DNA from: a virus | Virus record (IMG/VR): IMGVR_UViG_3300023442_000026 | Span: 1 to 24,713 of that record | Reading direction: 5' to 3' (one strand) | DNA length: 24,713 bases | Position numbers and translations under genes: made by a program | Shown here: positions 2,850-24,521 of the stretch, in pieces | How the letters are laid out: the number at the start of each line of letters is the position of its first letter | How positions within the stretch are numbered: the first letter of the stretch is position 1 | The notes under the pieces: generated by a model | The model's input: the letters and a program-made list of their open reading frames with translations, nothing else | Told to the model about the DNA's origin: nothing | Database searches by the model: none

Positions 2850-2854
2850 TTAAT

Positions 2855-2890
2855 AAAAATGGTAATAAGTTCAATCTTATTGCCATTTTT
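2855..2890 (+). terminator. Intrinsic terminator after the accessory block
   Basis: AAAAATGGTAATAAG and CTTATTGCCATTTTT form a 15-bp stem with one G-U pair, loop TTCAAT, followed by the T-rich tract TTTTTATTTTCTTTT. It begins 6 nt after the stop of the zinc-ribbon gene, a textbook rho-independent terminator. It separates the accessory genes from the downstream promoter. Confidence 0.85.
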
Positions 2891-2898
2891 ATTTTCTT

Positions 2899-2926
2899 TT
2901 GACTTATATCATTATATTAATATACT
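2899..2926 (+). promoter_or_regulatory. Sigma-70-type promoter, candidate late promoter
   Basis: TTGACT at 2899-2904, a 16-bp spacer, and TATACT at 2921-2926, directly downstream of the terminator's T tract. Predicted transcription starts near 2932. It would drive the structured region that follows and possibly the whole operon from the small terminase onward. The spacer length matches that of the second candidate promoter at 24371. It is a sequence match only. Confidence 0.65.
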
Positions 2927-2930
2927 ACTA

Positions 2931-3370
2931 CTTAGATTAAGTCTAAGGCGAAAGCTGGGGGCCCCTGTTGATAGTTGTAGACAATAGGAACTGGTCCACT
3001 CTATATGACTATAAAGAATGGAGTGAGATTTTACAACCTTGCGACGCTATATATCTATAGGCAAGAAGGCGTGTATGGAGATCACACGGTTTATAACTTG
3101 AAAAACTATAAACGGAAAAGTACCCTAGTAATCTAAACAATATGAGTGTCATGCCTTTGAGACCTTTTAGGTGAAGTTAATCCTCCTTTTAAAATACTAA
3201 TAGTATTGGGGGGTAAGGGGGGAGATGAGCTTTGCTATTCTATTCTCTAAGGCATACAGGCAATAGTTTATTAGTTAATAGTTTATTAGTTAATAGTTTA
3301 TTAGTTAATAGTTTATATAGTGATAGAGTTAAAGGAGTGAGATGTCTTTAAGTTATGAGATCATAGACTT
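2931..3370 (+). ncRNA. Putative large structured RNA or long late-operon leader
   Basis: There is no open frame of note, but the segment is locally GC-richer than its surroundings and dense in helices. Hairpins seen: CTTAGA/TCTAAG (2931-2947); CCTGTTG/CAATAGG (2964-2988, one G-U); CACTC/GAGTG (2997-3025); CTTGC..CTATA/TATAG GCAAG (3038-3065); CGTGT/ACACG (3070-3088); GTTTATA/TATAAAC (3089-3113); AATACT/AGTATT (3193-3207); AAGTTATG/CATA-g-ACTT (3350-3370). A long-range 12-bp helix with one mismatch pairs 3151-3162 with 3244-3255 and encloses CCTCC and two GGGGGG tracts. A promoter lies just upstream. It matches no RNA family I can name. It could be a stand-alone ncRNA, an antitermination leader, or packaging-site DNA. 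The 3' end is uncertain. Confidence 0.5.
3262..3316 (+). repeat. 15-bp tandem repeat, 3.7 copies
   Basis: The unit aatagtttattagtt occurs at 3262-3276, 3277-3291 and 3292-3306, with a 10-base partial copy at 3307-3316. Copies are identical. There are no spacers, so it is not a CRISPR. It lies in the gene-free segment upstream of the small terminase gene; iteron-like binding sites, a packaging site or slippage are all possible. Confidence 0.9.
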
Positions 3371-3565
3371 GTATTTGGTGATAGTTTAAAAGCTAGAACA
3401 TACGATCTATTACTAGAAATGGAACAGGTATTGACAGTTAACTAGGATAAGTAAAAAATATGCTACTGCTGATGAGAAATGTTTATTTCACACATTATTA
3501 GATTAATAAAAAAATAAAGTGCATTAATAGGAATACGGATTTAAGTTTATTATTAAGATAATATT
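3371..3565. other. Gene-free stretch before the terminase genes
   Basis: No coding frame is convincing here. A weak hairpin AATGT/ACATT lies near 3480-3500, and a perfect 6-bp hairpin TATTAT-TAAG-ATAATA occupies 3548-3563, ending two bases before the small terminase ATG. TTGACA at 3431 has no -10 box at usable distance. The stretch may be the 3' part of the leader RNA or hold a packaging site. Confidence 0.5.
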
Positions 3566-4012
3566 ATGCCAAGGAGAAGATATGATTGGGCGAAAATCAA
3601 ACAAGAGTTTTTCGCCTCAGACTACGTTCAAATAAAACAATATTTCAATGATTTATACAAAATATACAATGCGACAATAGCTATAAAGACAAAAGGTTGG
3701 GCAATGGAGAAAGAGAAGTATAAAATGAAACAGATAAGTAAAGCCAACAAGGAGTATGAAGCAGAGAGGGCAAGGAAATGGAAGAAGGCATTAAGGCACG
3801 TAGATACGGCTAGAATAGCTTGATTGCAAGAGTTGGGACAAAGACTTATATGACAAGATAAGGTTAGCAAGTTACAGGTAAGGGAAATAACTGAGGCGTT
3901 GAAGCATATGAGATTGGAGTTATGAGAAACAACAGATGAGGTAAGCAATAGGATAAAGGTTGACAACGACAACCCGTTATATAACAGATTAAAAGATTTA
4001 TGATTAGATTAA
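3566..4012 (+). CDS. terS: Terminase small subunit (probable)
   Basis: 148 residues (UGA = Gly). The N-terminus MPRRRYDWAKIKQEFFASDY followed by VQIKQYFNDLY looks like the helix-turn-helix DNA-binding domain of phage small terminases. A long charged helix follows (MEKEKYKMKQISKANKEYEAERARKWKKAL), then a C-terminal part ending NPLYNRLKDLGLD. Small terminases recognise the packaging site and deliver DNA to the large subunit. The assignment rests on fold pattern plus position: its last 13 nt overlap the start of an unmistakable large terminase. The standard code truncates it at residue 85. Confidence 0.75.
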
Positions 4013-5394
4013 CAGAGTCACAGTTAAGAGGTATTGAGGCTTTTGGTATTTGAAAATTAAGCGAACAAGAACTTTGTCAATATGCCTATAGTAAAGGGTA
4101 TTACGACAAAGTTTTTTTTGGTGATTTCTTTTTATGAAATCTAAAAGGCAAGAGTACACCACATTTCCATAAGGAGATATATAAAGCATTATGAGGGGAA
4201 GATAATATAAATATAATATGCCCTAGATGACACTGAAAGACCACAACAGTTATTATTGATATAATACATTCTTTAGTATATCAGCTATACAGCTCCCAAT
4301 TATATATAGCGAATGCGGGGCTTTGAAGTGAAACTCTATGAAAGATAAGGTATGAGTTAGAAACTAATTTACTTATTACAAAGGTGTTCTGAGTGCTAGT
4401 GCCGACACAACAAGTAAAGGAACATGATAACATTAAGAGAAGATGGAAGGAGAAGATGTTAGAGCTTACAAATTGAGAGATTATAGAAACATTAAGTAAA
4501 GGGAACCCTGTAAGGGGGAAAAGGCCTAAACGAATAATAGTTGATGATATAGACGAAAATAAAGATGTTATGAATAAGATGATAGTAGAAAAGACGAGGA
4601 CTTGGTTCTTTTCTTCATTATACAATACACTCCTGCCCGGCGGAAAAATATGTATACTTTGAACTATTGTCGGTACTATGTGTATGGTGAAGTACATCAA
4701 AGACACGAAACAATGGAAAACGATAGAATACAAAGCGGTTAATAATTGAGAGCCACTATGGGGAGACCTTTGGAGTTTGCAGGCATTAGAAGAAAGAAAA
4801 AAGGCTATAGGAACAACATTATACAACCAGGAATTTATGAATATCCCATTACAAGTAGCTAATACTATTATAAAGAGCGAACATATAAGATATTTTGAAT
4901 ATAAAGGGGAGAACTTCGACAAGATATATATATGAGTGGATCCAGCTATTAGCGAGAAGACCAACAGCGATAATTTTGCTATTACAGTATGTGGCATATT
5001 ATGAGGCAAGAAGTATATACTGGAATCATTGTCGCTAAAATGACAAGATAAAGACCCGTTTAAAGCTACAAATACAGTATATAATCTATACAAGAAATGG
5101 ACCGCAAATAAGGTTATAATTGAGACAGTTGCATTTCAACAAGTTATGAGTAAACTATTTAAAATGAAGGGTATAGCAACACAAGATATAACACCACATA
5201 AGGACAAGGTGACACGACTACTAGAACGGCAAGGGGACTTCGAGCAGTGACTAATATTATTTAATAAACCTACCACTTACAGTTTAATAGACCAACTATT
5301 ATCATTCCCGGATGTAGAGCACGATGATGAAGTGGACTCAATGGTTTACAGTTTCGGGGGGAAGCGACAAGAGGTATTTGTATGATGATTTTAA
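4000..5394 (+). CDS. terL: Terminase large subunit, DNA-packaging ATPase/nuclease
   Basis: 464 residues. It powers DNA translocation into the prohead and cuts the concatemer. Visible motifs: Walker A CPRGHGKTT (about residues 74-82), in which both glycines after Arg and His are UGA; Walker B RIIVDDIDE (about 177-185); coupling motif LGTIVGT (about 219-225); the RNase H-fold nuclease with its first Asp in YIGVDPAIS (about 309-317), the second acidic site in KVIIETVAFQQ (about 370-380), and the terminal acidic cluster HDDEVDSM (about 440-447). Length and domain order fit T4/HK97-type TerL. Seventeen in-frame UGA codons are present, and the standard code leaves no usable frame. It overlaps terS by 13 nt. 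Confidence 0.97.
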
Positions 5395-9718: not shown

Positions 9719-9732
9719 TTGTAATCTTAACT

Positions 9733-9755
9733 CTTGAGGGGGATCCCCCCTTAAG
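9733..9755 (+). terminator. Strong hairpin after the capsid gene (terminator, attenuator or mRNA stabiliser)
   Basis: CTTGAGGGGG and CCCCCTTAAG pair over 10 bp (one G-U) with a three-base loop. It is one of the strongest hairpins in the window, in an otherwise AT-rich 65-nt gap 14 nt after the capsid stop. There is no U tract, so full termination is doubtful. It could raise capsid mRNA relative to downstream genes by protecting the 3' end or by pausing polymerase. Confidence 0.6.
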
Positions 9756-9783
9756 GTTTAGCTTATAATTTAACTACTACGTT

Positions 9784-10620: not shown

Positions 10621-10925
10621 CAACAACCAATAACACCGTCAATATAAGTAGATATACGACTATATCAGGCGAAAGCACTTATGGGCTAATTATCACTTGA
10701 TTAGATGTATACATAGAAGCTAAAAGCTGAAATGATAACCAGTGATTTGATTGACAAACTAATGCTTCTTTATACGTTATGATGTCGAATGGAGTGCAAG
10801 ATATACAAATAGGGGACCGTATAGTTGACAAAAATAATATTATCTATACAGTGGAAAACAGGGATATATTTGATGATATGAGCTGAAAACATTGAGAATA
10901 TATACTAAATACGGTAATTGATTAA
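10614..10925 (+). CDS. Putative head-tail joining/head closure protein
   Basis: 103 residues. The pattern is a beta barrel-like protein: ISRYTTISGESTYGLIITGL, VYIEAKSG, SLYVMMSNGVQDIQIGDRIV, then NIIYTVENRDIF. Head completion proteins (SPP1 gp16/HK97 gp7-like) are about 100 residues with a late 'i..gD.i.....Y.v......' motif, which is visible here. Position, immediately after the connector and before the gp10-like gene, is canonical. The start overlaps the previous stop (ATGATAG), so translation is probably coupled. Confidence 0.7.
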
Positions 10926-10926
10926 T

Positions 10927-11286
10927 ATGAGCATAGTAATAAAAACAAACTTTAAGCTTTGAAACTTTGATCCGTCACTTCTTATACAAGATGGACTATC
11001 AAACACCTGACAGGCTATACAGAGAAGGGCACAAGCGAATGCCCCATATTTGTCGGGAACATTAAGGAGGAGTATATGAGTTGAACCTAATATTATAACA
11101 AGAAACACTAAAAGTATAAATATATGACCTAGAAAAGTTAAATATGCAGTGGTGAGAGAATACAAGAATAAACTCCATCCATGAACTAGATTTTATATGA
11201 AGAAAGCTTTTGACAGCTGAGGCAATATAATAAAGACAGAGTTTGAGAAATCGTATAATAAAATATTAAGATTAATAAAGAAATAG
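10927..11286 (+). CDS. Neck/tail protein, HK97 gp10-like
   Basis: 119 residues. It shows the gp10 signature: a helix IQRRAQANAPYLSGTLRRSI ('A...AP..tG.Lr.SI'), then a beta part with KVKYAVVREYKNKLHPGTRF ('Y...vE.g....P'), then a C-terminal helix FYMKKAFDSGG...IKTEFEKSYNKI. These proteins sit at the head-tail interface and are needed for tail joining. Length fits the family. Its UAG stop is followed directly by the next ATG. Confidence 0.87.
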
Positions 11287-22428: not shown

Positions 22429-22512
22429 ATGTTATTAACCTCTATATTACTATGAATAGTATATCATAGTATAATGACAGTATATTTTATAATAAAGCAA
22501 TTATGACAATAA
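22429..22512 (+). CDS. Tiny membrane peptide
   Basis: 27 residues: MLLTSILLGIVYHSIMTVYF followed by a short polar end IIKQLGQ. It is hydrophobic almost throughout, with two UGA glycines, preceded by an AT-rich leader and overlapping the next ATG by 10 nt. It could be a mini-holin, an antiholin or a spurious frame. The length gives little statistical support. Confidence 0.4.
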
Positions 22513-22904
22513 AAGAAATAATAATTACTTACAGAACAACCGGGACTATATCAAAAGATAGTATGGATATATTAAGGGCTAAATGAATAGTAAACTGAGT
22601 ATGACCGCAGAAATCTATATGGGGAGTAAACTATCTTATAGACTGTATAACTAATAGTCTTGATATAGATATAGAAGCAAGCGGGGATATGCACGACCTT
22701 AATTATTATATAGGTTGAACTGAGGAGGATAAACAGAAAGCTGATAGGGGATTCTTTACAAGGCTCATAGATGATATAATGAAAGCTAACTTTAACCTTG
22801 CAAAAGAGTGATTTTATATTATACTTGCATATATAGCTTATGTATGAGTAAGATCATTTGGCTATAAACATTTTAATTATATAACTCTTAATAATGAAAA
22901 ATAA
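22503..22904 (+). CDS. Phospholipase A2-like protein
   Basis: 133 residues. Around residues 62-81 the sequence DMHDLNYYIGGTEEDKQKAD has the HDxxY motif of phospholipase A2, with His64-Asp65 as the expected catalytic pair, then GG...AD..F as in bacterial/phage PLA2-like proteins. Upstream, GVGPQ (about 32-36) could be a calcium-binding loop (in secreted PLA2 this is YGCxCGxGG, so the match is loose). The C-terminus has a hydrophobic segment FYIILAYIAYVGV (about 104-116). It would hydrolyse sn-2 esters of phospholipids and thereby help lysis or entry. There is no signal peptide; the window has no supporting proof of activity. It lies directly after holin-like genes. Confidence 0.65.
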
Positions 22905-23375: not shown

Positions 23376-24230
23376 ATGACACCACAACAAGACTACGCGT
23401 TAGATAAGGAGGACGATAGAGATTATATATACAAGGACTTTTACTGAATAGCGTGAAGTTATGTCAATAAAAAGATAATAGACAAAGTGGACGACTATCA
23501 AGATCAGAGTCTGGATATAATAACAAAATATATGTGTGTGTTCTTCTCATCAGCCCACGGTACTAATATAGAGAATAATATAGAGGGGAGTTGAATAGTG
23601 ACAAATGGAATTGATTTAGGCCTAGAAGCTATAACAGACTGAACCCTTGACCCAAATGCTGGAGCGTATATAGTGGACTGACCAAAACTACTACTTAAAA
23701 AATGATTAATAAAATGATATGCGCTTGTAAAAACTATAGAAGAGATAAAACATTCGATAGCTAACAACCGCCCAGTAGTATGTGGGAGTAATAGAATAAT
23801 ATGGGGTGACACTGCGCCTTACATACTTAAAGAAGGTAAATCATATGGGCACGCGGTGGTGATTATATGATATGATGATGAAAGGGAGGTACTAATAATA
23901 AAAAATAGCTACTGAAAAGATAAGTATGATAAATGAAAAAATTATTTATTATACAAAGATTTTTGACTATTGTATAATAGTAAATACTCATTACTTGACA
24001 AAAAGGATGATATATTATCACATAAAAGAACACTTATGAACAATATAGAGTTTGACGAACAAAAAATACTATTTTCACTTTGAATATATAACGGGAAAGA
24101 TAACAATAAATCAATCACGAGAGGGGAAACCGCTATAATGATAGAGAGATGTATAGAAAAAATATTTAGTTGAGAAATAACAGCTAAAAGGATGATGGAC
24201 CTGAAGAAACAATTTAAAAAGTCTATATAG
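23376..24230 (+). CDS. Papain-like cysteine protease with SLH-like C-terminus (candidate endolysin)
   Basis: 284 residues. Clan CA papain layout is visible: Cys54 in KYMCVFFSSAHG, His159 in YGHAVVIIGYDDE and Asn177 in IIKNSYGKDKY, with the classic 'gHAv.i.GYd....li.NSyG..yG' C-terminal lobe (Gly mostly UGA). NRPVVCGSN is the preceding strand. Residues about 226-262, QKILFSLGIYNG and KSITRGETAIMIERC, resemble a single SLH module (TRGE motif), which would bind cell-wall polymer. It is the last gene of the late operon, in endolysin position, so it may cut peptide cross-links or surface proteins. No signal peptide is seen, so release would need a holin. Confidence 0.8.
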
Positions 24231-24280
24231 TATCCTTATACTATATTAAAATGAGTTTTAAGATAGTATAAATGATTTTA

Positions 24281-24289
24281 TGGTATAAT
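24281..24289 (+). promoter_or_regulatory. Possible extended -10 element
   Basis: TGG followed by TATAAT forms an extended -10 sequence, without a recognisable -35. A start near 24296 would give only about 35-40 nt before the terminator at 24306-24332. It may be coincidental in AT-rich DNA. Confidence 0.25.
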
Positions 24290-24305
24290 GACGCCATACG
24301 TCGCA

Positions 24306-24332
24306 AACTAGCTCTTAAAGGGTTAGTTTTTT
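24306..24332 (+). terminator. Intrinsic terminator of the late operon
   Basis: AACTAGCTC and GGGTTAGTT form a 9-bp stem (two G-U pairs) with loop TTAAA, followed by six T residues. A short GACG/CGTC hairpin precedes it near 24290. It lies about 75 nt after the protease stop codon and probably ends the operon that starts upstream of the small terminase. Confidence 0.85.
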
Positions 24333-24370
24333 AATTATTAAAAATAACTAAAAATTATCAATAAAAACAT

Positions 24371-24398
24371 TTGCTTTTAGCTTTTATATTTATATAAT
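24371..24398 (+). promoter_or_regulatory. Sigma-70-type promoter for small RNA or next module
   Basis: TTGCTT at 24371-24376, a 16-bp spacer and TATAAT at 24393-24398 (preceded by TA). The predicted start is near 24405. It follows the late-operon terminator and precedes a compact hairpin RNA ending in its own terminator. Confidence 0.7.
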
Positions 24399-24404
24399 AG
24401 GCTA

Positions 24405-24521
24405 GCAAACAATAAATATAGTATATTCAATTTAATATCAGAGGGGGTATTGGATTGAGTATATTATATATACTACTAAAAGCCGAATAAGTCCCCTCAG
24501 ACTACTTATTCGGCTTTTTTG
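24405..24521 (+). ncRNA. Putative small RNA with complementary hairpin loops (or attenuator leader)
   Basis: About 115 nt between a promoter and a terminator, without a credible ORF. Elements: an outer 8-bp stem TAGTATAT (24419-24426) with ATATACTA (24468-24475); inside it a 12-bp hairpin CAATTTAATATC (24428-24439) with GGTATTGGATTG (24446-24457), every position paired by Watson-Crick or G-U, loop AGAGGG; then a terminator hairpin whose loop starts CCCCTC. GAGGG of the first loop is exactly complementary to CCCTC of the second, so a loop-loop (kissing) contact is possible. It could be a free sRNA or a regulated leader of the gene at 24567. It matches no known family I can name. Confidence 0.6.
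24478..24520 (+). terminator. Strong intrinsic terminator
   Basis: AAAAGCCGAATAAGT and ACTTATTCGGCTTTT form a perfect 15-bp stem with an 11-base loop (CCCCTCAGACT), running into TTTTTT. It ends the putative small RNA 46 nt before the next start codon. Confidence 0.92.

Follow-up and report, generated by a model that had tools for sequence, protein, structure and literature searches.

A candidate structured RNA and a decayed methyltransferase gene upstream of the terminase genes in a phage with TGA recoded as glycine

The locus upstream of the terminase genes

The window analysed here is a whole stretch of 24,713 nt, positions 1-24,713 of IMG/VR virus record IMGVR_UViG_3300023442_000026. All of its genes are on the + strand and are intelligible only with TGA read as Gly (code 25): coverage by long open frames rose from 11% to 76% once TGA was Gly, and the Walker motif of the terminase large subunit (TerL) then reads RGHGKTTT. 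The window was therefore assigned to a phage infecting code-25 bacteria of the Absconditabacteria/Gracilibacteria type, many of whose phages are reported to use the host code (PMC10746230). The noncoding RNAs of such phages seem to have been little studied; the words "intergenic" and "non-coding" are not used in PMC10746230. Shine-Dalgarno (SD)-like sequences are absent before the window genes (27 gene starts). Anti-SD pairing at these 27 starts was weaker than at random positions, and the upstream regions are very AT-rich. The locus contains the following features.

2852-2893, +: predicted intrinsic terminator for the gene cluster upstream (18-pair hairpin, then a T-rich tail)
2899-2926, +: candidate sigma-70-type promoter TTGACT-16-TATACT (10/12 consensus matches; predicted transcript start near 2933)
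2932-3258, +: candidate structured RNA of ~330 nt (covariance model match in phage G015, blastn and alignment; no Rfam match)
2932-3136, +: 5' domain of the RNA, with conserved P1-P4
3137-3258, +: 3' domain of the RNA
3262-3321, +: tandem repeat, 3.9 copies of the 15-mer AATAGTTTATTAGTT (TRF score 111)
3320-3445, +: ParB-type DNA methyltransferase fragment (EGDVFKLGDHRLVFGDS..., read VIELKEGDVFKLGDHRLVFGDS... with TGA as Gly; phrog_498, E=1.1e-5)
3484-3558, +: second methyltransferase fragment, the C-terminus (KKIKCINRNTDLSLLL; matches five intact code-25 methyltransferases over their final 16-25 residues)
3566-4012, +: TerS-like gene (code-25 ORF; weakly similar, as a TerS, to proteins encoded before TerL in L068/L070)
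4000-5394, +: terminase large subunit (phrog_38, E=2.6e-68)

The 717 bases at 2850-3565 are by far the longest stretch of the window without an intact gene (the runner-up is 24231-24518), and the TerS-like gene is the first intact gene 3' of them. An earlier note had called this region gene-free, which is correct for intact genes but not for fragments, as 3320-3442 and ~3484-3558 are pieces of a DNA methyltransferase (MTase) gene with TGA read as Gly. The terminator that it proposed was borne out by the 18-pair hairpin (0.4 expected in 2.5 kb). Its promoter is present at 2899-2926, but 18 patterns of this quality were found against 15.3 expected, so the sequence match by itself is at chance level; it is the position alone of the promoter-like site that is suggestive. 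The predicted RNA starts ~40 bases 3' of the terminator. The minimum-energy fold is closed by a long-range helix and includes about eight hairpins, much as had been described, and the reported rise in GC was seen relative to the upstream genes (~0.38 versus 0.25-0.30), although the value is the same as that of terS and terL.

Hairpins were also seen elsewhere in the window. The second large gap (24230-24518), between the lysin gene and a replication-type gene, folded with z -8.2 versus shuffles and contains a pair of terminator-like hairpins plus one that is long and AT-rich. A GC-rich terminator-like hairpin (9732-9756) lies within the late operon, directly 3' of the major capsid gene.

A decayed methyltransferase gene

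The fragment at 3320-3445 shared as much as 68% identity with MTases of phages. It also had 79% DNA identity over 48 nt to the intact MTase gene of G015, a distant code-25 phage of 40 kb with a TerL 27% identical to the window TerL; the ends of the G015 record overlap by 104 nt, suggesting a complete genome of about 40.1 kb. The second fragment (3484-3558; best E=4.8e-4 in a local search) ends a few bases before terS. Because the two fragments represent the motif region and the C-terminus, the gene has lost its middle and N-terminal part. The stretch thus resembles ParB-type DNA adenine methyltransferases (phrog_498) in that its two fragments are ordered and oriented as in the gene, but differs in its internal deletion, its broken frames and the missing N-terminal ParB part.

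Code-25 contigs with an intact ParB-type MTase were collected with a DNA pattern demanding two in-frame TGA codons in the MTase motif. An intact MTase lies directly upstream of terS, or up to about 200 bases from it, in L058, L059, L061, L064, L065, L068/L070, L072 and L073, and an intact gene occupies this slot in most of the code-25 relatives examined. In L052, ParB and methylase genes are found upstream. Searches with TerL and portal returned a single close code-25 relative, L002 (TerL 68%); on this contig, which is cut, the slot holds a SAM synthetase, the C-terminal part of which (1-474) is immediately upstream of terS, suggesting a phage DNA-modification cassette at that place. Together, these comparisons show ~3320-3558 to be the remains of a ParB-type DNA methyltransferase gene in the position expected from synteny. 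Gaps of this sort need to be translated with the correct genetic code before they are labelled non-coding. An MTase relic as the sole content of the stretch was rejected, since this is true for 3320-3558 only.

The gap upstream of the G015 MTase gene (G015 10658-11057; L104 2658-3057) also folds well (z -5.3 for about 300 nt). It does so through a long, MITE-like inverted repeat, and the RNA models found no similarity there.

Homology and covariation of the candidate RNA

The segment 2929-3258 folded at -90.1 kcal/mol, and none of 222 windows of 330 nt across the genome was more stable. Compared to dinucleotide shuffles the excess was modest (z -2.1, 7/200) and was confined to this segment, 3320-3565 having none. 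The reverse strand of the region had about the same excess, and the G015 copy described below folded no better than shuffles (z -0.7). Folding energy by itself would not have justified the claim of a structured RNA.

A covariance model (R2) built from the window alone (2948-3132) was run on 16 records and matched G015 63-271 over the full length of the model with E=3.2e-6; no other record matched. Independently of the model, blastn aligned the 37 nt at 3002-3038 with G015 at 84% identity, and it found a weaker, colinear match at 3204-3226, within the 3' domain. The aligned RNAs are 58.5% identical. RNAalifold gave -33.7 for the alignment and -14.0 for shuffled columns (0/200 as good), with 20 double changes compared to 7.3 in shuffled columns. 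The column-shuffle z was -5.8 for the whole alignment. Taken separately, the 5' domain scored -6.2 and the 3' domain only -1.0, the latter being conserved in sequence without a supported shared structure. A structure-based count found 92.9% of the pairs formed and 8 double changes, which fell to 0-1 when the pairing partners were slid by 1-3 columns; with only two sequences, the number of covariation events is small, and both alignments favour the structure, one (A6) having been fitted to it and the other anchored by hand. The conserved elements are as follows.

2939-2960, +: block AAGTCTAAGGC-gaaa-GCTGGGG, found in the alignments with G015
2964-2988, +: hairpin P2 with a conserved 11-nt loop (two pairs with both bases changed, one G-U to A-U)
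2996-3026, +: hairpin P3 with a conserved 13-nt loop AUGACUnUAAAGA (aligned without gaps; four pairs with both bases changed, one broken)
3038-3066, +: hairpin P4, CUUGC/GCAAG (CAUAC/GUAUG in G015; two double changes)
3204-3226, +: purine motif GGGGG..UAAGGGGGGAGAU of the 3' domain (conserved block in G015 332-356)

In P1, CTGG of the first block would pair with CTAG near 3126-3129, with one change from G-U to G-C; the tetraloop of this block is GAAA in the window and UUCG in G015. P2 and P3 aligned free of gaps and together have six pairs changed on both sides. P4 counts for less because its double changes depend on gap placement. The 13-nt loop of P3 and the 14-nt block that follows it are almost invariant between the two phages. 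The P2 loop GUUGUAGA is complementary to UUUUACAAC near 3029-3037 through 8 pairs in both phages, one of them G-U in the window and A-U in G015, and the two could form a conserved potential pseudoknot. These comparisons show that 2932-3258 is homologous to an RNA predicted in one distant code-25 phage and that the putative helices P1-P3 were kept through compensating changes.

The same data bear on whether the entire stretch is pseudogene debris that folds by chance. The MTase pseudogene at 3320-3558 is real and the fold excess is modest (z -2.1), as such debris would have it. However, no convincing protein similarity was found for 2929-3258 in any frame, the RNA aligns with a non-coding gap of G015, and the changes between the copies preserve pairing. 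The homolog and its covariation refute debris as the explanation unless both arose by chance, and we regard it as decidedly unlikely. A coding origin for the conserved P3 block was rejected as well: read as codons it has 5 non-synonymous and 0 synonymous differences in 13 codons, and the differences in the conserved block are spread evenly over codon positions. What remains of the new structured RNA that the earlier note saw in the whole region is therefore about half of it (~2932-3258); the rest is the tandem repeat and the MTase pseudogene.

Two checks suggested in that note also gave results. Neither the window copy nor the G015 copy matched any Rfam family, including the riboswitch models (SAM and others), and the search for covariation in related phages yielded the one relative with compensating changes, G015. 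Other searches for further members gave little. Exact 19-mer patterns had no matches in the viral collection, and a gapped pattern on the P3 block had 18, among which G015 was the only RNA match and the others look like chance matches in protein-coding sequence. Against phages and plasmids, blastn found nothing with the window RNA and only short, mostly AT-rich matches with the G015 RNA. Model R1 (3' domain) had no matches, and no third copy was found among the other code-25 records, most of which are fragments. A weak match of model R3 in G020 (E 0.04) was discarded because it did not recur and showed no motif, and a 90% match to the beginning of L052 was attributed to chance. A conserved RNA outside any known family, in phages with proteins 25-45% identical, is a target for probing, and the pair provides a seed alignment for finding more members.

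Genomic position and possible role

The window RNA precedes the late genes. The G015 RNA opens the early region, ahead of small early genes and replication genes, and terL is about 15 kb distant. Because the structure stays the same while its neighbours change, a role tied to the terminase, as packaging RNA or pac site, is disfavoured. The packaging RNA of phi29, to which the earlier note had likened the region, comes from phages with the phi29-type ATPase motor. The likeness, a structured RNA encoded beside a packaging gene, holds in the window only; the window phage has TerS and TerL (TerL phrog_38) rather than a phi29-type motor, G015 likewise has an ordinary TerS/TerL motor and its RNA is not near terL, and the Rfam family of the packaging RNA was not matched. 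This link is therefore not supported. Hairpins and 15-bp repeats might instead be a pac or cos site that binds TerS to start packaging, and the location directly upstream of terS and the 3.9-copy repeat at 3262-3321 would suit such a site. Yet the G015 homolog is far from terL and no tandem repeat was seen at the equivalent place, L002 and most code-25 relatives have genes rather than repeats before terS, and hairpins with compensating base-pair changes would not be expected of a DNA site. We consider a pac/cos role for the whole region most improbable; for the tandem repeat alone it is possible.

A promoter-like site similar to that of the window (TTGCAA-16-TATACT) precedes the G015 RNA. In both phages the RNA heads a block of co-directional genes with no clear terminator 3' of it, which favours a leader. 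Transcription would start at the promoter just 3' of the terminator and yield the structured RNA 2932-3258 as the 5' leader of the following operon, the late genes in the window and the early genes in G015. The RNA would fold while emerging and act on the transcribing or translating machinery, possibly as an antitermination or attenuation element. We put the probability that 2932-3258 encodes a new structured RNA of phages, expressed from a promoter after a terminator as the 5' leader of the following operon, at about 0.5. The leader reading leaves unexplained a terminator-like hairpin that separates the RNA from the promoter-like site in G015. The put antitermination RNA of HK022 and EAR, the alternative named in the earlier note, are antitermination leader elements that make RNA polymerase pass terminators. 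As a candidate leader, the window RNA would resemble them in its place just 3' of a promoter-like site and ahead of a long operon, but it is larger and has no Rfam match.

Nearly as likely, though tentative, is that the same RNA is free-standing and acts in trans, in the manner of ROOL and GOLLD or by targeting the host, being processed or terminated near 3258 with its place in the operon incidental. The downstream genes differ between the phages (terS in the window, small early ORFs in G015), so there is no conserved cis target gene, and similarity at the DNA level was kept although the proteins are 25-45% identical. In addition, a pairing energy of -11.2 kcal/mol with the 16S anti-SD is predicted for the purine motif (UAAGGGGGG), and the motif is conserved where the genes show no SD. 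Against action in trans, a clear terminator 3' of the RNA and nearby tRNA genes are absent in both phages, and the anti-SD pairing may be incidental to the purine-rich strand of a helix; the pairing is an observation and does not count as evidence of function. ROOL and GOLLD are often found near phage tRNA genes, and a ROOL example has 659 nt and many GOLLD members exceed 800 nt (PMC12286853). The window RNA is like them in being phage-encoded and highly structured with a possible pseudoknot, but is smaller (about 330 nt), and neither the window nor G015 has a tRNA gene. The ROOL and GOLLD covariance models matched neither copy at the gathering threshold or at E up to 10.

A speculative extension, which we hold to be unlikely, is a new RNA class confined to viruses of bacteria with TGA=Gly, whose members would redirect expression by docking on the host's ribosomes or polymerase; this reading draws on the purine motif, the SD-less genes, the conserved 13-nt loop and the conserved potential pseudoknot.

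The two phages also share a small conserved protein (45% identical), encoded near the lysin gene in the window (22503-22904) and near the RNA in G015 (1071-1478; L084).
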